Positions 10,977 to 43,363 of a stretch of DNA of 46,207 bases are shown here, in pieces. Where the stretch lies: positions 1-46,207 of the forward strand of contig JAILQG010000059.1 of NCBI GenBank assembly GCA_024699055.1, read 5' to 3'. The stretch comes from Bacteroidales bacterium (GTDB taxonomy: Bacteria > Bacteroidota > Bacteroidia > Bacteroidales > UBA932). The notes beneath the pieces were generated by a model, which had not been told where the DNA came from, ran no database searches, and worked only from the letters and a program-made list of their open reading frames with translations. Position 1 is the first letter of the stretch. Each line of letters starts with the position of its first letter. The translations under genes and the position numbers were made by a program.

Positions 10977-11784
10977 CTTCCTTCATCTGCGGCTCCAGGA
11001 GGAGTTTGAGTTCGTTAATGTTGTTGATAGGGGTGATGACCCCTTCCCTGCAGAAGGAGATGGTGCCTCTCTGCTCGCTTACCACTATGACGTCGGCATC
11101 GCTCCTTTCACTGATGCCCACGGCCGACTTGTGGCGCATGCCGTACATGGGAGGAAGGTCGGTGCGTTCGGTCATGGGAAGGGTGCAGCGCGCCGCGATG
11201 ATGCGGCCGTCGCCTATTATCATGGCCCCGTCGTGCAGGGGGGAATTCTTGAAGAAGATGTTCTCCATCAGCCGGCATTTGATGTCGGCGTCGATGCGGT
11301 CGCCGCTGTCGATGACGTTCTGGAGGAGGTTCTTGTGCCTGATGACTATGAGGGCGCCGGTCTTCGATTCGGCCATGTCCCTGCAGGCCTGGGTGATTTC
11401 CTGGATGGCCTGCTTGTCGAGTACGTGCCTGTTCTTGCCCAGAAGCCGGTCGACCCAGCTGCGGTTGTTGCTGTCCCTGTTCCTGAGGCCGGTGGAGCGC
11501 CCCAGCGTAGAGAGGAACTGGCGGATTTCCGGCTGGAAAATGATGATGAGGGCTATCGCTCCGAGGTTGATGACCGTGTTGAGGATGGCGCTCATGAGCT
11601 TCATGTCCAGGGCCCCCGCCACGAAGCGCAGGATGAACAGCGCCACGATGGCTATGAGGATGTTGAGGGCGCTGGAGCCCCTGAGCCAGCGGAATGAGAT
11701 GTAGATGATGGCCGCCACCATTACGATGTCGAGCACGTCTATGAAGGAGAGTTTCAGGAACCCGAAGATTTCAAGAGGAATCAT
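10960..11784 (-). CDS. cdaA: Diadenylate cyclase (CdaA type)
   Basis: N-terminal TM segments then DAC domain: SPLHDGAMIIGDGRIIAARCTLPM...GMRHKSAVGISERSDADVIVVSEQRG. ATG at 11782-11784; the tracked start at 11793 is a TTG inside the promoter -7 box. Confidence 0.93.
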   Translation of the reverse strand: MIPLEIFGFLKLSFIDVLDIVMVAAIIYISFRWLRGSSALNILIAIVALFILRFVAGALDMKLMSAILNTVINLGAIALIIIFQPEIRQFLSTLGRSTGLRNRDSNNRSWVDRLLGKNRHVLDKQAIQEITQACRDMAESKTGALIVIRHKNLLQNVIDSGDRIDADIKCRLMENIFFKNSPLHDGAMIIGDGRIIAARCTLPMTERTDLPPMYGMRHKSAVGISERSDADVIVVSEQRGTISFCREGVITPINNINELKLLLEPQMKEDENRE

Positions 11785-11790
11785 ACTGTG

Positions 11791-11798
11791 CAAAGATA
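11791..11798 (-). promoter_or_regulatory. -7 box TATCTTTG for cdaA
   Basis: Reverse complement of caaagata, 6 nt from ATG. Confidence 0.65.
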
Positions 11799-11825
11799 CT
11801 ACAAATAAATATTTTTTTAGTGCAC

Positions 11826-11855
11826 TTGCTTTTTGAAAAATTAATCGTATCTTTG
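11826..11855 (+). promoter_or_regulatory. Promoter of rplC operon: TTG-N19-TATCTTTG
   Basis: TTG 11826-11828, TATCTTTG 11848-11855, followed by CAG and a hairpin. Confidence 0.75.
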
Positions 11856-11858
11856 CAG

Positions 11859-11873
11859 CCCCAATTTTTGGGG
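11859..11873 (+). promoter_or_regulatory. Short hairpin CCCCAA-ttt-TTGGGG at the start of the rplC mRNA leader
   Basis: 6-bp perfect inverted repeat within a few nt of the expected transcription start. Confidence 0.5.
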
Positions 11874-11907
11874 TTAAGTATCAAACAATTAATTAACAAA
11901 CAAACCA

Positions 11908-12531
11908 ATGCCTGGATTAATTGGAAAAAAAGTCGGAATGACTTCCGTCTTCAGTGCTGATGGAAAGAACCTTCCATGCACTGTCATCGAGGCTGGTCCG
12001 TGCGTTGTCACGCAAATCCGCACACTCGAAAAGGATAAGTACGAGGCCGTGCAGCTTGCCTATGACGAAACCACAGAAAAGCACACCAGCGCACCGCTCA
12101 AGGGGCATTTCGCCAAAGCCGGCGTGACCCCCAGGCGCAAGCTTGTCGAATTTGAGGCAGACTTCGCCAAGGAGCTCAAATTGGGCGACACCGTAACCGT
12201 CGAGGACGTTTTCAAGGACGTTCCCTTCGTCGATGTCGTCGGCACTTCTAAAGGTAAGGGTTTCCAGGGTGTCGTTCACCGTTACCACTTCAATGGTGTC
12301 GGTGGCACGACCCACGGTCAGTCCGACCGCCTGCGTCACCCGGGTTCTATGGGAGCATCCTCCTGGCCTTCCCGCGTTCTTCCCGGAATGCGTATGGCCG
12401 GCCACATGGGGCAGGAGAGGGTGAAGGTCTTCAACCTTCAGGTTATCAAGATCATTCCCGAGAACAATCTTCTCATCGTCAAGGGTTCCGTTCCCGGAGC
12501 CAGGGGTTCATATCTTATTTTGGAGGCTTAA
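11908..12531 (+). CDS. rplC: 50S ribosomal protein L3
   Basis: [15 protein letters not shown]...[38 protein letters not shown]. Confidence 0.98.
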
Positions 12532-12534
12532 ACC

Positions 12535-13161
12535 ATGAATCTGAACGTACTTAAAATAGACGGTACCGATTCCGGAAAGCAGGTCGTCCTCGACGACGCC
12601 GTTTTCGGCATCGAACCCAACGATCACGCCATCTATCTCGACGTCATCCAGTATCTCGCGCATCAGCGTCATGGCAATGCCAAGAGCAAGGACCGCAGCG
12701 AAGTTTCCTACAGCACCAAGAAAATGGGTCGCCAGAAAGGCGGCGGCGGTGCACGTCACGGCTCCATCAAGGCCGGTACCTATGTAGGCGGCGGTAGCAT
12801 CTTCGGTCCCAAGCCCCGCTGGTACGGCGGCAAGCTCAACAAGAAGGTCAAATCCCTCGCACGCTGTTCAGCTCTCTCTTATAAAGTTAAGGAGAACGCC
12901 CTCAAGGTCGTCGAGCCGTTCGCTATGGACGCTCCCAAGACCAAGGAATTTGCAGGCATCCTTTCTGCTATCAAGGCCGGAGACCGCAAGGTTCTCTTCG
13001 TCCTTCCGCAGAACTCCGACAATATCTTCCTTTCTTCCCGCAACCTTCCTTATGTAAATGTCATCACTGTCGACGAAATCAACACCTACGCCATCATGAA
13101 TGCGAATTCTGTGGTTCTGGTGGACGGCGTCCAGGACATTCTTGCAGAAAGGAAAAAATAA
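12535..13161 (+). CDS. rplD: 50S ribosomal protein L4
   Basis: KKMGRQKGGGGARHGSIKAGTYVGGGSIFGPKPR is the L4 signature. Confidence 0.98.
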   Translation: MNLNVLKIDGTDSGKQVVLDDAVFGIEPNDHAIYLDVIQYLAHQRHGNAKSKDRSEVSYSTKKMGRQKGGGGARHGSIKAGTYVGGGSIFGPKPRWYGGKLNKKVKSLARCSALSYKVKENALKVVEPFAMDAPKTKEFAGILSAIKAGDRKVLFVLPQNSDNIFLSSRNLPYVNVITVDEINTYAIMNANSVVLVDGVQDILAERKK

Positions 13162-13173
13162 ATTCTACAAGAA

Positions 13174-13464
13174 ATGGGAATCATTATTAAGCCAATAGTT
13201 ACTGAGAAGCTCACGGTTCAGGGCGAAAAGTTGAACCGTTATGGCTTCGTGGTCGACCGCGACGCCAACAAGCTTCAGATCAAGGATGCAGTGGAGAAGA
13301 TGTATGGAGTATCCGTTGCAGACGTGAATACCATCAACTACCACGGCAAGCGCAAGAGCCGTTTCTCCAAGAGTGGCATTCTCCGCGGCCGTACGAATCA
13401 CTTCAAGAAGGCATACGTCACCCTCGCCGGGGAAGACAAGATTGACTTCTACGCTAATATATAG
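13174..13464 (+). CDS. rplW: 50S ribosomal protein L23
   Basis: [12 protein letters not shown]...[31 protein letters not shown]. Confidence 0.97.
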
Positions 13465-13475
13465 GAGGTAAGACA

Positions 13476-14300
13476 ATGGCAGTTAAGAAATTCAAACCGA
13501 CCACTCCCGGACAGAGGAACAAGGTCATCAGCACGTTCGCCGAGATTACGACGGACAAGCCCCACAAGTCATTGCTCGAGCCCCTGCACCGCACCGGCGG
13601 CCGCAACAACACCGGCCAGCTCACGATGCGCTATATAGGCGGCGGTCACAAGAGGATGTACCGCGTCATCGACTTCCTCCGCAACAAGGACAACTGCACC
13701 GCTACCGTCCGTACCATCGAGTACGACCCCAACCGCAGTGCACGCATCGCCCTCGTCCAGTATGAGGACGGCGAGTATCGCTACATCATCGCTCCCGACA
13801 AGATTCAGGTCGGTCAGGTCATCGCTTCCGGTCACGGAGTTGCTCCCGAAGTGGGCAACTGCCTCCCCCTCAGCGAAATTCCTGTTGGTACCCAGGTTCA
13901 CAACATCGAGCTTCGTCCCGGCCAGGGCGCCGCTATGGCGCGCTCCGCAGGCACCTACGCACAGCTTGCTGCCCGTGAAGGCAACTACGCAGTGCTTCGT
14001 CTGCCCTCCGGCGAAACCCGCATGGTGACCGTCAGCTGCCGCGCTACCGTAGGTGTCGTCTCCAACGGAGACCACAACCTCGAAAGCGACGGTAAGGCAG
14101 GACGTCCCCGTCATCTGGGCCGCAGGCCGCACAACCGCGGCGTCGTCATGAACCCGCACGACCACCCGATGGGCGGTGGTGAAGGACGTGCCTCCGGCGG
14201 ACATCCCCGTTCGCGCAAGGGTCTCCCCGCAAAGGGCTACAAGACCCGCAACCCGAAGGCCACTTCCAACAAGTTCATAATTGAAAGAAGAAAGAAATAA
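13476..14300 (+). CDS. rplB: 50S ribosomal protein L2
   Basis: [26 protein letters not shown]...[22 protein letters not shown]. Perfect AGGAGG at 13463-13468. Confidence 0.98.
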
Positions 14301-14309
14301 ACAGGAATT

Positions 14310-14582
14310 ATGAGTCGTTCACTTAAAAAAGGACCATACATCCAGGAAGCCCTGGAAAAGAGGATTCTTGCCATGAATGAAGGTGGCAAGAAGAAAGAGG
14401 TGGTCAAGACCTGGAGCCGTTCCAGCATGATTTCACCTGACTTCATCGGCCATACTGTCGCGGTTCACAACGGGAACAAGTTCATTCCTGTTTATGTAAC
14501 CGAGCAGATGGTCGGTCACAAGCTCGGCGAGTTTGCGCCGACCCGCACTTTCAGAGGACATTCCGGCAATAACAAGAAGTAA
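14310..14582 (+). CDS. rpsS: 30S ribosomal protein S19
   Basis: [15 protein letters not shown]...[46 protein letters not shown]. Confidence 0.98.
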
Positions 14583-14584
14583 CC

Positions 14585-15004
14585 ATGGGACAGAGAAAAA
14601 GACTTATGGCCGAACGCTTCAAGGAAGCCAGGAAGACCACGGCAATCGCCAAACTGAATGAAGTTCCCACTTCTCCCCGCAAGATGCGTCTCGTAGCTGA
14701 CACCGTCAGGGGCGTCGAGGTCAACAAGGCCCTCGATATCCTGCACTTCAGCAAGCGCGAGCCCAGCATCAAGCTCGAGAAACTTCTCCGCAGCGCCATC
14801 GCGAACTGGGAAGCCAAGAATCCCGAGAGCGCCAAGGAACTCGACAACGGCAACGTATATGTCAAGACTATAATGGTAGGCGAAGGACGCACCATCAAGC
14901 GCATCCGCCCCATGCCTCAGGGCAGGGCCGGCCGCATCCGCAAGCGTTCCAACCACGTCACCGTCGTACTCGATGTTAAACCCGCACAGGAGGAGGCTAA
15001 ATAA
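14585..15004 (+). CDS. rplV: 50S ribosomal protein L22
   Basis: [25 protein letters not shown]...[28 protein letters not shown]. Confidence 0.97.
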
Positions 15005-15006
15005 TC

Positions 15007-15789
15007 ATGGGACAGAAAACTAATCCTATCAGCAACAGAATCGGCATCACCCGCGGCTGGGACTCCAACTGGGCAGGTGGCAACTACGCCGAAAAGATTG
15101 CGGAAGATTTCAAGATCCGCAAGTATCTGAACAGCCGTCTCGCAAAGGCCGGCCTCAGCAGGATCGTCATCGAACGCACCCTCAAGCTCATAACCGTCAC
15201 CATCTATGCGGCCCGTCCCGGTTTCATCATCGGCAAGGGCGGCACCGAGGTCGACAAGCTCAAGGAAGAGCTCAAGAAGGTTACGGGCAAGGACGTCCAG
15301 GTGAACATCTACGAGGTTCGCCGTCCCGAGGTTGACGCTCACATCGTAGCTGACAGCATCGCCCGTCAGATTGAAGGCCGCGTGTCTTACCGCCGCGCCA
15401 TCAAGATGGCTATCGCCAACACCATGCGTGTAGGCGCCGAGGGCATCAAGGTGCAGATCAGCGGCCGTGTAGGCGGTGCTGAAATCGCACGCAGCGAGAT
15501 GTTCAAGGAAGGCAGGACCCCGCTCCACACCTTCCGTGCCGACATCGACTACGCACTCGCAGTGGCCCGTACCCAGATGGGTGCCATGGGCATCAAGGTC
15601 TGGATCTGCAACGGCGAAAAGTACGGCAAGCAGGATCTTTCTCCCGCTGCCTACGCTGCCGCCAATGCACAGGCTGCAGGCGCCAACCGTGGCTCCGGCC
15701 GTGGTGGCGACCGCAGGCCCCGTCGCGACGGTGACCGTCGTGGTGGTGACCGCAGGCCCCGCCGTGACAGCGAGCGCTCCGACAACTAG
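15007..15789 (+). CDS. rpsC: 30S ribosomal protein S3 with Arg/Gly/Asp-rich C-terminal tail
   Basis: [25 protein letters not shown]...[15 protein letters not shown]; tail [29 protein letters not shown]. Confidence 0.98.
15700..15774 (+). repeat. Imperfect in-frame tandem duplication (about 36-39 bp units) encoding the S3 tail
   Basis: cgtggtggcgaccgcaggccccgtcgcgac... then cgtggtggtgaccgcaggccccgccgtgac... Confidence 0.6.
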
Positions 15790-15811
15790 TCCGGAGTTAT
15801 CATAAGAGAGG

Positions 15812-15843
15812 TGACCGACAGTTTCTGCCGGTCATCTTTTTTT
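15812..15843 (+). terminator. Rho-independent terminator of rplC-rpsC segment
   Basis: TGACCGACAG-ttt-CTGCCGGTCA (10-bp stem, one mismatch), then tctttttttg. Confidence 0.85.
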
Positions 15844-15875
15844 GTGGGGACAAGCCGGGCGCTTGGCATAATTGA

Positions 15876-15911
15876 AGACGGCCGGCAATTTCTTGCCGGC
15901 CGTCTCCTTTT
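15876..15911. terminator. Perfect 13-bp hairpin between converging rpsC and acpP, likely bidirectional terminator
   Basis: AGACGGCCGGCAA-tttc-TTGCCGGCCGTCT then ccttttg. Confidence 0.75.
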
Positions 15912-15935
15912 GATAGCGTTTTTATTGCAAAGGAT

Positions 15936-16190
15936 TTATGCTATCGGGGTGCCGAGCTTTTCGGCGACCTTGTCGATGGCATCCTTTACGGTTGCGATGC
16001 CGCTGGTTTCTTCATCGGGAATCTTGACTCCGAACACCTTCTCGAACTCCATGAGAAGCTCGACGGTATCCAGAGAATCTGCGCCAAGGTCATTGGTGAA
16101 ATTGGCGGTTTCTGTTACCTCGGAGGGCTCCACGCCGAGTTTGTCGACGATGATGGCCTTCACTTTGTTTACGATCTCTTCGTATTCCAT
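15936..16190 (-). CDS. acpP: Acyl carrier protein
   Basis: 84 aa with phosphopantetheine site [16 protein letters not shown]. Confidence 0.97.
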
Positions 16191-16270
16191 AATAATTTAG
16201 ATTTTATAGTACTTTCTAGTCAAGGTTTCGCAAAGTAACAAAAAATAATTAATTTCTCCAAACAATGCGG

Positions 16271-17092
16271 TCAAGCCGCGCTGGCACCGTCCGGCACACT
16301 CCCGGATTCCTTGCTGAGCTTCAGCCAGATGCGTACGGCATTGATGCTGTTGAGCAGGTAGAATACATACTTGAGCAGTTGCGCTACGGTATAGCTCGCT
16401 TCGGGGCCTCCGGCGGAAAGCTTTGAGGAGAAGGCGATGATGGAGGAGATGTTCACCAGTATCCACAGGTACCACTGGTCGGTGAAGGCAAGGGCCATCA
16501 GCACGAGCGCCACGATGTTTGCGGTGGTCATGGTGCAGTCCAGTGCCATGTCCTTGAAATCCACCTCCTGTTTAGCGCTGAGAAGCCAGTCCCAGCCGGT
16601 GACTGAGGCAAGCGCGCCCGAATCGAGCGACCAGCGCAGCAGCATCATCACTCCGAAGACGCCTGCGAACAGAAGGATTGTCCATAGCCACTGCACTCCC
16701 TTGAGCCTACGGGCCTTGAGGGTTGAGTCCTTCGCGGAACCTCCGCGTTTCTTCCACTGGTAGAATCCGATGAACTCCATGGGGATGAAGTATCCCACGT
16801 GCAGGGCCAGCAGCATGTAAATCCTCTGGTCGAAGAGCGTGAACGAAAAGATGATTACGTCTATGAGGCCAAACACGAAGGTGAGGATGTTGGCGTTGGC
16901 GGCCAGGATCGTGCTGATTACGCCCATGAGTGCTCCCACCGAAGTGAGGATGATGAACCAGGGCTGGGAAGTGAGTGCGGCGCCCCCCGAGTTGTTAGTC
17001 AGGTTATGGATGCACGCTATTGTGAGGCAGACCGTCATTCCCACTACCAGGAAGACGTTGAACCATTTGTTGAATTTCTTTTCGTCAGTCAT
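16271..17092 (-). CDS. PnuC-family nicotinamide riboside/vitamin transporter
   Basis: Polytopic protein with ILTFVFGLIDVIIFSFTLF and GFYQWKKRG, C-terminal WYLWILVNISSI. Likely start MTDEKKF at 17092, overlapping the uvrC stop by 8 bp; the tracked start at 17152 is inside uvrC. Confidence 0.82.
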   Translation of the reverse strand: MTDEKKFNKWFNVFLVVGMTVCLTIACIHNLTNNSGGAALTSQPWFIILTSVGALMGVISTILAANANILTFVFGLIDVIIFSFTLFDQRIYMLLALHVGYFIPMEFIGFYQWKKRGGSAKDSTLKARRLKGVQWLWTILLFAGVFGVMMLLRWSLDSGALASVTGWDWLLSAKQEVDFKDMALDCTMTTANIVALVLMALAFTDQWYLWILVNISSIIAFSSKLSAGGPEASYTVAQLLKYVFYLLNSINAVRIWLKLSKESGSVPDGASAA

Positions 17093-36213: not shown

Positions 36214-36690
36214 ATGAGACACAATAGAGCAGTAAATCATCTCGGCCGTCAGAGCGGACACCGCAAGGCTATGCTCGCCAACATGGCTTCTTCCCTCATT
36301 CTCAAGAAGAGGATTACCACTACGGTCGCCAAGGCAAAGGCCCTCAAGCCCTACCTTGAACCCCTTGTGACCAAGAGCAAGGACGACAGCACCCACAGCC
36401 GTCGCGTCGTCTTCAGCTACCTTAAGGACAAGGAGGCCGTCAGCGAGCTCTTCCGCACCATCGCTCCCAAGATCGCAGACCGTCCCGGCGGATACCTCCG
36501 TATCCTCCACCTCGGTTTCCGCAAGGGCGACGCCGCCGACATGGCACTCGTTGAATTCGTAGACTTCAACGAAGCCGCCCTCGCTTCCGGCGAGAAGAAG
36601 GAGGCCAAGAAGACCACCCGCCGCAGCCGCAGCAAGAAGGCCGTCGAGGCTCCCGCAGAGGAAGCTCCCGCCGAAGAGAAGGCCGAGTAA
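36214..36690 (+). CDS. rplQ: 50S ribosomal protein L17
   Basis: [44 protein letters not shown]. Confidence 0.98.
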
Positions 36691-36713
36691 CGGACTAGCC
36701 GTTACATCATTAA

Positions 36714-36748
36714 AAACCCGCAGAAACGAACATTTCTGCGGGTTTTTT
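36714..36748 (+). terminator. Rho-independent terminator after rplQ
   Basis: AAACCCGCAGAAA-cgaaca-TTTCTGCGGGTTT followed by TTT; 13-bp perfect stem. Confidence 0.9.
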
Positions 36749-36803
36749 ATTACATTTGTGATTGGCTTAACGAAGAAACGCACAAAAAACACATAATTAA
36801 TCT

Positions 36804-39017
36804 ATGAATCCACTATTCTATGCAGTGCCCGCAGCATCGGTGATCGCCCTGTTCTTCGCATGGCTTTTCTATCACCAGATGCGCAAGGAAGACGAGGGTA
36901 CACCCCGTATGAAAGAAATCGCCAAATACGTCCGTGAGGGCGCAATGGCCTATCTCAAGCAGCAATACAAAGTGGTGATCATCGTGTTCGCCATCCTCGC
37001 CGTGTTCTTCGCCGTCCTGGCGTACGGCTTCGGTGTGCAGAACCCGTGGGTGCCCTTCGCCTTCCTCACCGGCGGTTTCTTCAGCGGTCTCGCCGGCTTT
37101 GTCGGCATGCGCACCGCCACCTATGCCTCCGGCCGTACGGCCAACGCCGCCCGTCGCTCGCTCAACTCCGGCCTCAAGGTGGCGTTCCGCAGCGGTGCGG
37201 TCATGGGCCTCACGGTGGTCGGTCTCGGCCTCCTCGATATCGCACTGTGGTACTTCGTCCTGCAGCTCGTATATCCCGCCAGCCTGTCGCAGAACCTCGT
37301 GATCATCACCACCACCATGCTTACCTTCGGCATGGGTGCCAGCACCCAGGCCCTCTTCGCCCGTGTGGGCGGCGGTATCTATACCAAGGCCGCTGACGTG
37401 GGCGCCGACATCGTGGGCAAGGTGGAAAGCGATCTTCCGGAAGACGATCCCCGCAACCCCGCCACCATCGCAGACAACGTCGGCGACAATGTAGGTGACG
37501 TGGCCGGTATGGGCGCCGACCTCTACGAGAGCTACTGCGGCAGTATCCTGTCCACCATGGCACTCGGCGCTTCGGCCTTCTACGCCCTCGGTCCCGAGAT
37601 GCAGACCCGCGCCATTCTCGCCCCCATGCTCATCGCAGCAGTGGGCGTGGTGCTCTCGGTAATCAGCATCTTCACCGTGCGCACCAAGGAAGGCGCCGGC
37701 ATGGGCCAGCTTCTGAAGAGCATGAGCTTCGGCACCAACATGGCGGCCATTCTCAGCGGCGTCGCCACCTTCGGCATCCTGGCCCTGGTGTTCGGTACCT
37801 CCAACAGCGACTGGTGGCACTTCGGTTGCTCGGTCGTGGCAGGTCTGCTGGCCGGCGTCATCATAGGCAAGGCCACCGAATACTACACTTCGCACTCCTA
37901 TAAGCCCACCCAGAAGCTTGCGGAGGCCTCCAAGACCGGCCCTGCAACCGTTATCATCAACGGTGTCGGTCTGGGCATGGTCTCCACTGCCATTCCGGTC
38001 ATCAGCATCGTATTCGCAATCGTGCTTGCATACCTCTTCGCCATCGGCTTCGACGTGAAGCACATGATGACGGCCGCATCCCTGGCCAAGGGGCTCTACG
38101 GTGTGGCGATCGCCGCAGTGGGCATGCTCTCCACCCTGGGCATCACCCTTGCTACCGACGCCTACGGCCCCATAGCCGACAACGCCGGCGGAAACGCCCA
38201 GATGAGCGAGCTCGAGCCTGAAGTGCGCGAACGCACCGATGTCCTCGACGCCCTCGGCAACACCACCGCCGCCACTGGCAAGGGCTTCGCGATCGGCAGC
38301 GCCGCACTCACCGCGCTGGCCCTCCTGGCATCCTACATAGAAGAGATCAAGATAGCCCTCGAGCGCGTGGGCGAACAGGTTGTGGCCGTAGGCGGCAATC
38401 TGATAAAGGCCGCCGATGCCAGCATCCTGGATATCCTGAACAACTTCAACGTGTCGCTCATGAATCCGGCCGTTCTCGCGGGCGTATTCATCGGCGCCAT
38501 GATGGCCTTCCTGTTCTGCGGCCTCACCATGAACGCAGTCGGCCGCGCCGCCTCCAAGATGGTGGTCGAGGTGCGCCGCCAGTTCCGTGAAATCAAGGGT
38601 ATCCTCACCGGCGAAGGCACTCCCGATTACAAGCGTTGCGTGGAAATCTCCACCAGGGCAGCACAGCACGAGATGCTCGGTCCCGCCCTTCTGGCCATCA
38701 TAGTTCCCGTCCTTGTGGGCATAGTCCTCGGCGTCGCCGGCGTGCTTGGCCTGCTTATCGGCGGCCTGGGCGCAGGCTTCGTGCTTGCCGTGTTCATGTC
38801 CAATTCGGGCGGAGCGTGGGATAACGCAAAGAAATATGTGGAAGAAGGCAACTTCGGGGGCAAGAATTCCGAATGCCACCATGCCACCGTCGTGGGTGAC
38901 ACGGTCGGCGACCCGTTCAAAGATACTTCAGGTCCGTCCCTCAACATACTCATCAAGCTCATGAGCATGGTGAGTATAGTAATGGCAGGCCTCACAGTCG
39001 GATTCCATCTGCTATAA
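36804..39017 (+). CDS. hppA: Membrane ion-pumping pyrophosphatase (K+-dependent type by motif)
   Basis: 737 aa: DVGADIVGKVESDLPEDDPRNPATIADNVGDNVGDVAGMGADLYESY; GNTTAATGKGFAIGSAALTALAL (Ala rather than Lys at the K+-dependence position). Confidence 0.96.
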   Translation: MNPLFYAVPAASVIALFFAWLFYHQMRKEDEGTPRMKEIAKYVREGAMAYLKQQYKVVIIVFAILAVFFAVLAYGFGVQNPWVPFAFLTGGFFSGLAGFVGMRTATYASGRTANAARRSLNSGLKVAFRSGAVMGLTVVGLGLLDIALWYFVLQLVYPASLSQNLVIITTTMLTFGMGASTQALFARVGGGIYTKAADVGADIVGKVESDLPEDDPRNPATIADNVGDNVGDVAGMGADLYESYCGSILSTMALGASAFYALGPEMQTRAILAPMLIAAVGVVLSVISIFTVRTKEGAGMGQLLKSMSFGTNMAAILSGVATFGILALVFGTSNSDWWHFGCSVVAGLLAGVIIGKATEYYTSHSYKPTQKLAEASKTGPATVIINGVGLGMVSTAIPVISIVFAIVLAYLFAIGFDVKHMMTAASLAKGLYGVAIAAVGMLSTLGITLATDAYGPIADNAGGNAQMSELEPEVRERTDVLDALGNTTAATGKGFAIGSAALTALALLASYIEEIKIALERVGEQVVAVGGNLIKAADASILDILNNFNVSLMNPAVLAGVFIGAMMAFLFCGLTMNAVGRAASKMVVEVRRQFREIKGILTGEGTPDYKRCVEISTRAAQHEMLGPALLAIIVPVLVGIVLGVAGVLGLLIGGLGAGFVLAVFMSNSGGAWDNAKKYVEEGNFGGKNSECHHATVVGDTVGDPFKDTSGPSLNILIKLMSMVSIVMAGLTVGFHLL

Positions 39018-39022
39018 ACGAT

Positions 39023-40957
39023 ATGAAACATTTTACACTTCCTGAGGACGGGGGCCTCATCCTTAACAATCTCCCGGACGATCTCCTTCACAGCTTCGAC
39101 CGCCTTTATACGGTAGTAAGCCGCGATCCGCTTGAAGGCAGCGAAAAAGTTGCAGACGAGGTAATCGGGGCTATCCGTGCCCACGAAAAGTCGGGGGAGA
39201 AGCGCCTCTTCCGTCTCGGTCTCAGCACCGGTTCCAGCCCTGTGATGCTCTACGAAGAACTCACCCGTCGCAATGCGGCCGGAGAAGTGTCCTTCAGGAA
39301 TGTGGAGATTTATTCGATAGACGAGTATTATCCTTCGGTCCCAGGGAGTTACCAGAGCCGCAACGCAAAGCTTTACGAGGCGCTGCTCAACCATATTGAC
39401 ATCCTGCCGGAAAACATCCATATACCCGACGGTACCGTCCCCCACGAAAAGGTGAGTGAATTCTGCTCCGCCTTCGATGCTGCCGCACGCGGTCTCGACC
39501 TTCTGGTCATAGGTATTGGTGAGCAGGGGCAGGTCGGCTTCAACGAACCCGGCGCCGCCGAGCAGAGCCGCACCCGCACCGTGCTCCTGTCATATCTCAA
39601 CCGCAAGCGTCAGGCAAGCAATTATTTCGGCCACGACCTGTCAATCACCCCCAAGGAGGCCATTACAATGGGCCTCAGCACCATGCTCAGCGCCAAGAAG
39701 GTCATCCTGCTGGCCTGGGGTGAAGGCAAGGCCGAAGTGGTGAGCAAGGTCGCCGAGGGGAAAGTGACTTCGGATGTCCCCGCCAGCTTCTTCCAGGGTC
39801 ACCCCGATGTCAAGCTGTATGTCGATGACGTGGCCGCCGGCAACCTTACCCGTTTCGTCGCCCCGTGGCTCATCGGTCCTTGCGACTGGACACCCAAGTT
39901 CTGCCGCAAGGCCGTTATCTGGCTGTGCCGCAAGGTCGGGAAGCCCATACTCAAGCTCACCCGCCAGGACTATCTCCAGAACTCCCTTGAAGGTCTCCTG
40001 GAATCCGTAGGCAGCTACAACAAGTTGAATATAGACGTTTTCAACGACCTCCAGCATACCATTTCCGGGTGGCCCGGCGGCAAACCCAACGCCGACGACA
40101 CCTATCGTCCCGTCAAGAGCAGTCCCTTCCCGAAAACGGTGCTGGTCTTCTCTCCGCACCCCGACGACGATGTCATCAGCATGGGCGGTACGCTCATCCG
40201 GCTGCAGCATCAGGGTCACAACGTGCATGTCGCCTACGAGACTTCAGGTGACGTGGCCGTCCACGACAGCGTGGTGATGCAGCACATCGACGCCGCCTAC
40301 CAGCTCGGCTACGGCGACAGGCGCGAAGAGGTGCGTAAGATCATCGAAAGCAAGAGACCCGGTGAGCCCGAACCCCGTAAGCTGCTGGATATCAAGGCTG
40401 CAATCCGCAGAAGCGAAGCCCGCGGCGCCGACCATTCCTTTGGCATGGACGATGACCACATCCACTTCCTCAACCTGCCCTTCTACGAGAGCGGCGGCGT
40501 GAAGAAGAACCCCTGCAGCCAGATCGACGTCGATATCATCAAAAAGCTCATGAGCGAGCTCAAGCCCGACCAGATCTACATGGCCGGCGACCTGGCTGAT
40601 CCCCACGGCACCCACCGCGTATGCACCGAGGCTGCCCTCGAGGCTTTCACCCAGCTTGCCGAGGAAGGTGCTTCCTGGACTGAAGGCTGCTATATCTGGC
40701 TCTACCGCGGCGCTTGGATGGAGTGGGAGCTCGACCGCGTCGATATGGCCGTTCCCCTCAGCCCCGACGAAGTGCTGGAGAAACGCCATGCCATCTACAG
40801 GCATCTTTCCCAGAAAGACATAGTCCCGTTCCCCGGCGAAGATCCGCGCGAGTTCTGGCAGAGGGCCGAAGACCGCACCCAGACCACCGCACGTCAGTAT
40901 GACGATTTGGGAATGGCTGAATATCAGGCAATTGAAGTGTTCTTAAGATTGAAATAG
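39023..40957 (+). CDS. NagB-like domain fused to PIG-L/LmbE-type deacetylase domain
   Basis: 644 aa: N-terminal sugar-phosphate isomerase fold (LGLSTGSSPVMLYEEL, YSIDEYYP, GIGEQGQVGFNEPG); C-terminal VFSPHPDDDVISMGGTL and DPHGTHRVC (PIG-L). Confidence 0.92.
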   Translation: MKHFTLPEDGGLILNNLPDDLLHSFDRLYTVVSRDPLEGSEKVADEVIGAIRAHEKSGEKRLFRLGLSTGSSPVMLYEELTRRNAAGEVSFRNVEIYSIDEYYPSVPGSYQSRNAKLYEALLNHIDILPENIHIPDGTVPHEKVSEFCSAFDAAARGLDLLVIGIGEQGQVGFNEPGAAEQSRTRTVLLSYLNRKRQASNYFGHDLSITPKEAITMGLSTMLSAKKVILLAWGEGKAEVVSKVAEGKVTSDVPASFFQGHPDVKLYVDDVAAGNLTRFVAPWLIGPCDWTPKFCRKAVIWLCRKVGKPILKLTRQDYLQNSLEGLLESVGSYNKLNIDVFNDLQHTISGWPGGKPNADDTYRPVKSSPFPKTVLVFSPHPDDDVISMGGTLIRLQHQGHNVHVAYETSGDVAVHDSVVMQHIDAAYQLGYGDRREEVRKIIESKRPGEPEPRKLLDIKAAIRRSEARGADHSFGMDDDHIHFLNLPFYESGGVKKNPCSQIDVDIIKKLMSELKPDQIYMAGDLADPHGTHRVCTEAALEAFTQLAEEGASWTEGCYIWLYRGAWMEWELDRVDMAVPLSPDEVLEKRHAIYRHLSQKDIVPFPGEDPREFWQRAEDRTQTTARQYDDLGMAEYQAIEVFLRLK

Positions 40958-40959
40958 AA

Positions 40960-41754
40960 ATGAGAGTAATCATCCGCGATTCCTATTCCGACGGCTCCAT
41001 CTGGGCCGCGCATTACATTGCAGACCGCATCCGCGAAAAGGCGGCGCGCACCGACGAACCCTTCGTGCTGGGTCTCCCCACCGGTTCAACCCCCATAGGC
41101 ACCTATGACGAGCTTGCGCGCATGTACGCCGCGGGCGAGATCTCTTTCAAGAACGTCATCTCCTTCAACATGGACGAGTATGTAGGCCTTCCCGAAAGCC
41201 ATCCCGAAAGCTACCACTCCTTCATGTTCAAGAACCTGTTCTCGCGCATAGACGAGCCCAGGGAGAACATCCATATCCTCAACGGCAACGCCCCCGACCT
41301 TCAGGCTGAGTGCATGGCCTATGAGAGGGCCATCGTGGAAGCCGGCGGCATCGACCTCTTCCTCGGCGGCATCGGCGAAGACGGGCATATCGCCTTCAAC
41401 GAACCCTTCTCGTCCATCTACAGCCGCACACGCGTCGTCACCCTGACCGACGACACCATCCGCGTGAATTCCCGTTTCTTCGGCGGCGACGAGTCGCTCG
41501 TACCCAGGCAGGCCATGTCGGTAGGCGTGGCCACGGTGCTCTCCGCAAAGGAAGTGGTGATCCTCGCCTTCGGTCCCAAAAAGGCCCGCGCCATCCGTGA
41601 CGCCATCGAAGGGGGAGTGTCCCACACCAACACCGTGTCGGCGCTTCAGCTCCACCAGTTCGGTACCATCGTTATGGACGAACTTGCTGCAGGTGAACTG
41701 AAAGTCAACAGTTACAACTATTTCAAGGCTGTGGAGGCGGCAGAGAACCGCTAA
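40960..41754 (+). CDS. nagB: Glucosamine-6-phosphate deaminase
   Basis: 264 aa: LGLPTGSTPIGTYDEL, FNMDEYVGL, GGIGEDGHIAFNEPFSS. Confidence 0.97.
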   Translation: MRVIIRDSYSDGSIWAAHYIADRIREKAARTDEPFVLGLPTGSTPIGTYDELARMYAAGEISFKNVISFNMDEYVGLPESHPESYHSFMFKNLFSRIDEPRENIHILNGNAPDLQAECMAYERAIVEAGGIDLFLGGIGEDGHIAFNEPFSSIYSRTRVVTLTDDTIRVNSRFFGGDESLVPRQAMSVGVATVLSAKEVVILAFGPKKARAIRDAIEGGVSHTNTVSALQLHQFGTIVMDELAAGELKVNSYNYFKAVEAAENR

Positions 41755-42614
41755 AGACACTGCCGGTAGACGGAACCTCTCAACAGGGTGCGCAGTTCTT
41801 CGGGACTTGCGCACCTTTGCTGTTCTTCTGGGCTGATGACCGGGCCGATTGCCAGCCTGATTGTCTTTCCGGATTTGTTCGTAACCTCCCATGGGAAGCG
41901 CAACAGCCGCACCTTCCATCCGAAGAGAGTGCCCAGATTGTAGTAAAAGTCGGAGTTTCCGTCGAAGAAACGGATTGGAACTACCGGCACGCCGGCCTTT
42001 GAGATGAACTTTATTATGGACATCTGCCAGTCGCGGTCGCGTACGCGCGGCTCAGTGTAGGTGCTGCCGTCCGGCATTGTAACCACGGGCCCCGGGCCTG
42101 GGATTTTGTCGGAAACCGCACCGGAGGGAAAGAGCCCGAGGGGGTGACCGCTCCTGACATGCTCCATGGCGGCTCGGATCCCGCTGATGCTTTCAGAGGT
42201 GGGCGCGGTGCGTGTCTCCCCGGTAGGGGTTACGGAGATGAAGTTGTCTTCCAGCACTTTGATGCGCATCAGCACCTTGTTCACGATCAGTTTGTAGTCG
42301 GGATACATCTTTGCGAGATAATCCACGAGAATAATGCCGTCGATACTGCCCATGGGATGGTTGCTGATTGTAATGAATGAGCCCGACCCGAGGCTTCTGA
42401 GGTGTTCGCCGCCTGTGACTGTGTAGTTCACGCCTATTCTCTTGAGGAAAGCGTCGGATGCCTCCGGGCCCTTCTTCCCTTCGGTGGCCCTGTACACCTC
42501 TTCCAGCCTGGTAACGCCTGTAACGCGGAGGAGCATCCTGGCAAAGGCGTTACCGGCCTTCCCGCGGAAGACTGGAGATGCCTGTTCGAGTTCTGAAAGG
42601 GGAAGCAGCGGCAT
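41751..42614 (-). CDS. Lysophospholipid acyltransferase family protein
   Basis: 287 aa: GSFITISNHPMGSIDGIILVDYL (NHPxGxxD acyltransferase motif), LGLFPSGAVSDK. Confidence 0.85.
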   Translation of the reverse strand: MPLLPLSELEQASPVFRGKAGNAFARMLLRVTGVTRLEEVYRATEGKKGPEASDAFLKRIGVNYTVTGGEHLRSLGSGSFITISNHPMGSIDGIILVDYLAKMYPDYKLIVNKVLMRIKVLEDNFISVTPTGETRTAPTSESISGIRAAMEHVRSGHPLGLFPSGAVSDKIPGPGPVVTMPDGSTYTEPRVRDRDWQMSIIKFISKAGVPVVPIRFFDGNSDFYYNLGTLFGWKVRLLRFPWEVTNKSGKTIRLAIGPVISPEEQQRCASPEELRTLLRGSVYRQCL

Positions 42615-43318
42615 CAGTTACCCTCTTTAGGAGGATCCTGCCTGGCGTAGTACCTGATGTCCTGAATCCAGTTCACTGCGACTATTGCGGCCAGGATCGC
42701 GGTTACGCCGCCGGCAATATAGTCGAACAAAGTGAAGGTATAGGTGATGCCGAGAATCGTGATGTCGCCTGTATACTCCCGTATCGGCTTGATGCAGATG
42801 AAGAGCAGGCAGATTACTATCATTATGAGCCTGAACTCCGTGGGCCCCATTTTGGCATAGGTGAGATTGAATTCGCTCCTGAGGTGCACGTTCATGTTCT
42901 GGTTGACGGTGAGAATTAGATAGAATACCAGGGCTCCGAGAGCTATGTGCAGATGCACCCAGGGGGAGAGGCCTACCCCCACGAACATGAGAAGTTCGTT
43001 GATCATGTCCATGGTATGGTCGATGTAATAGCCGTAGACCGGCCTCTGCGCATTGCGTACGCGTGCGATGGTGCCGTCCAGCGAATCGCCGAACCAGTTG
43101 AGCACAAAGCCGCCGATGGCGAGCCACAGCCAGCCCACTCCGAGGTTGGACAGAATGAACCCCGCCGCCGTCATAATCGAACCGGCAAGGCCCACCCCCG
43201 TCATTACGTCGGAAGTCACCCATGAGGGCATCCTTTCCGCCAGCCATACGAGGAGTTTCTTTTCCCCCGCGGCCAGGACGGAAGTCTGTATTCTTTGTGC
43301 CTGCCTGATTTCTGCCAT
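42614..43318 (-). CDS. CDP-alcohol phosphatidyltransferase family protein
   Basis: DSLDGTIARVRNAQRPVYGYYIDHTMDM fits the CDP-alcohol PT signature DG-x2-AR-x8-G-x3-D-x3-D. Likely start MAEIRQ at 43318. Confidence 0.92.
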   Translation of the reverse strand: MAEIRQAQRIQTSVLAAGEKKLLVWLAERMPSWVTSDVMTGVGLAGSIMTAAGFILSNLGVGWLWLAIGGFVLNWFGDSLDGTIARVRNAQRPVYGYYIDHTMDMINELLMFVGVGLSPWVHLHIALGALVFYLILTVNQNMNVHLRSEFNLTYAKMGPTEFRLIMIVICLLFICIKPIREYTGDITILGITYTFTLFDYIAGGVTAILAAIVAVNWIQDIRYYARQDPPKEGN

Positions 43319-43335
43319 TTCAAGAGTATCTCCAG

Positions 43336-43343
43336 CAAATATA
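43336..43343 (-). promoter_or_regulatory. -7 box TATATTTG for CDP-alcohol phosphatidyltransferase gene
   Basis: Reverse complement of caaatata, 17 nt from the ATG at 43316-43318. Confidence 0.55.
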
Positions 43344-43363
43344 ATAATTTTGGCGGAAAACAT

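Follow-up and report, generated by a model that had tools for sequence, protein, structure and literature searches.

The window, which is the whole analyzed stretch of 46,207 nucleotides from a gut or rumen bacterium of the order Bacteroidales, contains a gene in which an N-terminal NagB-fold domain that has lost the catalytic histidine of glucosamine-6-phosphate deaminase is fused to a C-terminal PIG-L deacetylase domain with a complete putative metal site, and a standalone nagB gene follows directly downstream. A comparison of 273 distinct fusions suggests that the ancestral protein was probably a bifunctional GlcNAc-6-phosphate deacetylase/GlcN-6-phosphate deaminase, the deaminase half of which would now be non-catalytic, with the separate NagB performing the second step. 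The fusion architecture was already known; the pattern across the 273 fusions is new.

Fusion gene and its surroundings

The features of the region are given with position, strand, and basis of assignment.

36804 to 39017, plus strand: membrane pyrophosphatase gene, ending 5 bp before the fusion gene (profile match; context only)
39023 to 40957, plus strand: NagB–PIG-L fusion gene, 644 aa, composed of NagB-fold domain, linker, and PIG-L deacetylase (open reading frame, profile matches)
39143 to 39847, plus strand: NagB-fold domain, approximately residues 41 to 275, glutamine at the position of the catalytic histidine (PF01182, alignment with E. coli NagB)
39320 to 39322, plus strand: codon of D100, equivalent to E. 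coli NagB D72, retained (alignment)
39524 to 39526, plus strand: codon of Q168, equivalent to D141 (alignment)
39530 to 39532, plus strand: codon of Q170, equivalent to H143, catalytic histidine lost (alignment)
39545 to 39547, plus strand: codon of E175, equivalent to E148, retained (alignment)
39848 to 40132, plus strand: conserved linker, residues 276 to 370 (conservation comparison)
40133 to 40954, plus strand: PIG-L deacetylase domain, residues 371 to 644, full putative metal-binding/catalytic set (PF02585, alignment)
40154 to 40168, plus strand: PHPDD motif, residues 378 to 382, with H379, D381, and D382 (alignment)
40598 to 40615, plus strand: DPHGTH motif, residues 526 to 531, with H528 and H531 (alignment)
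40960 to 41754, plus strand: standalone nagB, 264 aa, intact GEDGHIAFNEP motif (open reading frame, TIGR00502)
41751 to 43363, minus strand: genes for a lyso-glycine-lipid-type acyltransferase and a CDP-alcohol phosphatidyltransferase, converging on nagB

The fusion gene starts with an ATG codon, and PF01182 (“Glucosamine_iso,” residues 41 to 259, 71 bits, Pfam cut-off 27) and PF02585 (“PIG-L,” residues 374 to 541, 70.5 bits, Pfam gathering score 28.2) were both matched in this one reading frame. The NCBIfam model NF002557 (PRK02122, “glucosamine-6-phosphate deaminase-like protein”), which describes the same NagB plus PIG-L architecture over its full length, spanned residues 23 to 643 with 807.8 bits versus a curated cut-off of 384. 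On the fusion, the NagB equivalog model TIGR00502 reached only about 173.2 to 175 bits, below the cut-off of 236.9. The product of the standalone gene, which begins 2 bp past the fusion stop codon, scored 363 bits (cut-off 237), and the first-pass annotation had rightly taken it for a normal NagB. Both genes are apparently co-transcribed in the window.

The gene order rplQ, membrane pyrophosphatase, and fusion (window positions 36214 to 41754) was common to the loci L034, L035, L036, L039, L042, L049, and L062, and nagB comes after the fusion in several of these near relatives. The fusion sits behind ribosomal-protein and pyrophosphatase genes, outside any sugar-utilization locus. At the other end, the last few bases of nagB overlap with the lyso-glycine-lipid-type acyltransferase gene.

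An AlphaFold model of the fusion, based on an alignment of 26 sequences, had a mean pLDDT of 76, mostly near 90 in the NagB half and mostly lower in the PIG-L half, and a pTM of 0.58, which makes the arrangement of the domains unfit for detailed reading. The model agreed with NagB structures (1dea, 7lqn, and 2bkv; TM to target 0.79 to 0.90) and with diacetylchitobiose deacetylases (8bgo and 4xm1; 0.58 to 0.62), the nearest solved PIG-L sequences. The PHPDD motif, a second histidine motif, and the fold are common to the fusion and to the diacetylchitobiose and BshB-type PIG-L deacetylases, but the similarity is low outside the first motif, and the fusion is joined to NagB.

Long nagB genes with a conserved C-terminal extension are present in Bacteroidetes/Chlorobi, Rhodopirellula, and several protists, a distribution ascribed to lateral transfer (Andersson et al. 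2006, PMC1484493). The text of that paper mentions neither a deacetylase nor PIG-L nor the catalytic residues, and the extension described there comprises about 500 aa versus about 370 here; judged by the description, the long nagB would correspond to NF002557. No experimental work on the fusion or on its catalytic residues turned up in the open-access literature searched, and PGN_0606 of P. gingivalis, which carries the same family name, appears merely in a ChIP-seq table. Fusions of this kind occur widely in Bacteroidota, and their name comes from the N-terminal half. Members of NF002557 outside the order mostly keep the catalytic histidine in a motif of the GRTGHIGFNEP type, whereas the clade of the window carries glutamine. 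The earlier warning that a deaminase label would be misleading goes too far in part, since NCBIfam already names the family “deaminase-like.”

Catalytic residues of the NagB half

Residues were compared with E. coli K-12 NagB (gene from NC_000913) at the sites D72, D141, H143, and E148, which aligned with D100, Q168, Q170, and E175 of the fusion, the active-site motif of which reads GEQGQVGFNEP. The fold, the equivalents of D72 and E148, and K208 are shared by NagB and the fusion; glutamines at the equivalents of D141 and H143 separate the two. The codons of both glutamines had been located correctly in the first-pass annotation, and no catalytic residue was shifted to a nearby position in the alignment.

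Evaluation of these two replacements needs to consider the variability of position 141. Among the 121 fusions with H143, this position was T, N, or S and never Asp, which indicates that Q168 is not diagnostic and that only the change of the histidine is. The NagB of B. subtilis (PDB alignment, IGRNGHIGFNEP) also has no Asp at position 141. Both catalytic positions are changed, as claimed, but the D141-to-Gln change was dropped as a sign of inactivity.

Glutamine was present at the H143 position in all 35 own-genus-like sequences, which excludes a sequencing accident. The own genome is a draft in 112 contigs with about 95% completeness, its gene content being taken from searches, and this fragmentation might point to an error of sequencing, assembly, or alignment, or to a pseudogene. 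Such an artifact is refuted for practical purposes by the same glutamine in near relatives from independent assemblies, by the intact frame, and by the low dN/dS values of the window fusion compared to L034 and L035, which were 0.05 to 0.08 for the NagB half and 0.03 to 0.05 for the PIG-L half.

Apart from these positions, the own-genus set shows a conserved pocket: equivalents of D72, R158, and K208 are present in 35/35 sequences and E148 in 31/35, the other 4 having Asp; E73 and Y74 are likewise invariant (35/35). A ligand-binding domain would fit this conservation better than free decay, and the earlier proposal of a ligand-binding NagB-fold domain is supported to this extent within the own-genus set; the allosteric role proposed alongside it goes too far. 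Close to the pocket, a further change specific to the clade concerns residue 64 (window positions 39212 to 39214; E. coli NagB position 36), a strand residue before the GLxTG motif, which is Arg or Lys in all 35 own-genus sequences and Val in most fusions that keep the histidine.

Residue states in 273 fusions

The 273 distinct fusions were obtained by genome searches in the phylum, the order, and the family. Of these, 121 retain H143 and 152 lack it, with 80 replacements by Q, 54 by N, and the remainder by S, G, A, or a gap. The histidine was present in 30/30 phylum-wide top matches and in all but one of 60 further loci. This one locus belongs to a genome of the same order, and the histidine was thus kept in every fusion sampled outside the order (59/59 and 30/30). 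The five PIG-L residues H379, D381, D382, H528, and H531, whose individual metal-binding or catalytic roles we take to be those of known PIG-L enzymes, are all present in the window protein, and this set (“HDDHH”) was intact in 152/152 fusions without H143 versus 115/121 with it. The metal-site motifs, apparently intact according to the first reading, were found to be so well beyond this one protein. These residue states suggest that several clades, among them much of this gut and rumen order, have an N-terminal half without catalytic activity; in such clades, it is the deacetylase half that was never lost.

In another large clade of the order, H143 is replaced by N or S, and D72 is mostly gone as well (Y, S, G, or F). 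The loop around positions 138 to 140 is lost in other clades. A mirror clade that keeps the NagB histidine comprises L133, L152, L154, L155, and L160 (genomes G651, G591, G656, G660, and G402); its PIG-L set is altered in L154, L155, and L160 (HADHH, HGDHH, and RADHR, respectively), and L152 has H528N. Apparently, loss can affect either half of the fusion.

In other parts of the phylum, many family members keep H143 and are probably real deaminases, a point that the first reading missed. The claim that the NagB half is no second deaminase may thus hold for the clade of the window and a few others but not for the architecture as such.

Loss of the histidine and presence of a standalone nagB

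The order-level sample comprised 69 genomes whose full-length fusion had been scored. A standalone nagB, defined as an unfused TIGR00502 match above the cut-off, was present in 36 of 37 genomes with a fusion that lost H143 and in 6 of 32 with a fusion that kept it (Fisher P = 3e-12, kinship ignored). Outside the order, 3 of 80 genomes with histidine-keeping fusions had a standalone nagB above the cut-off, and more distant NagB-like genes, below the cut-off, were present in some of them. Adjacency was counted on loci of at least 4 kb, a few of which overlap in content: nagB adjoined the fusion in 51 of 144 loci without the histidine (35 downstream on the same strand, 12 divergent, and 4 upstream) and in none of the 59 loci with it.

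These genome counts are not independent and overstate the evidence, since the histidine was lost only two to three times. In trees calculated without the NagB half, H143 changed state 3 times, and a single loss was weakly rejected (AU test, P = 0.046, with long branches present), which weakly suggests two to three independent events in the order. All 3 phylogenetic pairs pointed in the same direction, histidine loss with nagB, but a phylogenetically corrected test cannot reach significance with 3 independent pairs (sign test, P = 0.25). Moreover, a fusion without the histidine (Y, S, N, and M at the four sites) is present at G485:C5:893754-895667 (L153) in a genome of 1.2 Mb that is 99% complete, and neither nagB nor MurQ was found above the cut-off in G485. 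This indicates that the coupling of such fusions to NagB is not universal.

The following course of events would agree with these data. In the ancestral fusion, the C-terminal PIG-L domain would have deacetylated the phosphate of an N-acetylamino sugar, for which GlcNAc-6-phosphate is the most likely candidate. The N-terminal NagB domain would have deaminated the resulting GlcN-6-phosphate to fructose-6-phosphate. In the clade of the window, and once or twice more in the order, a separate NagB is present, and the fused NagB half has lost its catalytic histidine and would no longer deaminate but would have persisted as a folded structural or regulatory partner of the deacetylase that probably binds sugar phosphates. 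The window fusion would make GlcN-6-phosphate, and the NagB encoded 2 bp downstream would use it. The fusions form a series suited for studying how a fused enzyme domain may become a non-catalytic domain when another copy provides the same activity.

Divergence and selection after the loss

In fusions that keep H143, the mean pairwise identity was similar for both halves, 0.605 for the NagB half and 0.591 for the PIG-L half. At a PIG-L identity of 0.80 to 0.85, the identity of the NagB half was 0.78 in these fusions, compared to 0.57 within the own clade and 0.54 within the other clade without the histidine. The dN/dS of the NagB half was about 0.03 to 0.15 in pairs without the histidine, in many pairs 2- to 4-fold that of the PIG-L half. 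Faster divergence at a low dN/dS indicates that the NagB half is relaxed but not abandoned and that purifying selection persists. The linker was as conserved as the PIG-L part in the lineages without the histidine.

A NagB half that continues to work as a deaminase or isomerase, with glutamine in place of H143, the chemistry of D72 and E148, and possibly another sugar phosphate, is quite improbable. The conserved D72, E148, K208, and R158 equivalents in the own-genus set, the variability of position 141 across the family, and the low dN/dS would agree with such an activity. However, H143 is kept in every fusion sampled outside the order and, with few exceptions, wherever the genome has no other NagB, its replacement varies by clade (Q, N, S, G, or A), D72 is also gone in the other clade that lost the histidine, and the NagB domain diverges faster after the loss.

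Alternatively, the NagB half may be a decaying scaffold for folding or assembly of PIG-L that binds no ligand. This reading, doubtful as a general one, draws on the faster evolution after the histidine loss and on the disappearance of D72 and of the loop around 138 to 140 in other clades, and it is likely for the clades without D72. In the own genus, in contrast, the invariant D72, E73, Y74, R158, and K208 and the uniform change of the histidine to Gln would be unexpected under random decay. The opposite extension, in which the inactive NagB half is a sugar-phosphate sensor that binds GlcN-6-phosphate or GlcNAc-6-phosphate and sets the rate of a PIG-L domain replacing NagA in many Bacteroidota, can be proposed only tentatively. 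If it is true, the order holds a series from a bifunctional enzyme to an enzyme plus sensor, together with the mirror cases.

Substrate of the PIG-L half

The preferred reading, a deacetylase that was once bifunctional, requires a substrate for PIG-L, and GlcNAc-6-phosphate is slightly favored here: a deacetylase fused to the enzyme that acts next, together with a nagB gene that repeatedly adjoins the fusion after the loss of this second step, would point to this compound. The reaction would then be the same as that of NagA (TIGR00221). NagA has an amidohydrolase fold and is unrelated to PIG-L. The fusion would be a non-orthologous NagA for genomes seemingly without NagA, and reconstructions of the amino-sugar pathway would change for gut and rumen Bacteroidota.

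In the own genome, a draft of about 95% completeness, neither NagA (best score 19.7 bits versus a cut-off of 225.65) nor a second PIG-L gene was found. Within the own family, NagA was present in 29 of 99 genomes with the fusion, leaving 70 without it, versus 16 of 25 genomes that have nagB but no fusion (P = 0.002). In the order, the respective numbers were 10/69 and 6/22, which was not significant (P = 0.20). NagA is scarce in the order even without the fusion, so a replacement of NagA by the fusion would be indicated mainly by the own family. NagA was also present in some genomes with a fusion that lost the histidine, and two tandem NagA-like genes adjoin such a fusion on contig C82 of G348 and contig C16 of G680 (L291 and L096), which indicates that some genomes carry NagA alongside the fusion.

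The PIG-L half may instead serve another route, such as bacillithiol, glycolipids, or peptidoglycan fragments, and the adjacent nagB would then be unrelated. PIG-L is a broad family, the locus with its ribosomal-protein and pyrophosphatase genes is no sugar-utilization locus, genes for a lipid-type acyltransferase and a CDP-alcohol transferase adjoin nagB, and G485 keeps the fusion without nagB. This explanation is nevertheless rather unlikely, given that a GlcN-6-phosphate enzyme is both the partner in the fusion and the product of the repeatedly adjacent gene, that the fused NagB half is intact where no other NagB exists, and that BshA was not found above the cut-off in any of 26 genomes. 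A role in bacillithiol synthesis was rejected on this last result (0/26, with a best score in the own genome of 83 bits versus 273.7), and the BshB1 model gave 25 bits on the fusion versus a cut-off of 182.5.

Recycling of MurNAc was also rejected as a source of GlcNAc-6-phosphate in the genus, with murQ absent here and in most genus members tested. It was present in many other genomes tested, and this uneven occurrence argues against a general link of the fusion to MurNAc recycling.

The own genome contains a third NagB-like gene (L003, contig C93, about positions 11000 to 17000), GLGENAHLGFNQPG, in which the histidine is kept. Its best subfamily scores were those for NagB and galactosamine-6-phosphate isomerase, all below the cut-off, and it adjoins genes for a ROK-family sugar kinase and a gluP/NagP-like transporter.
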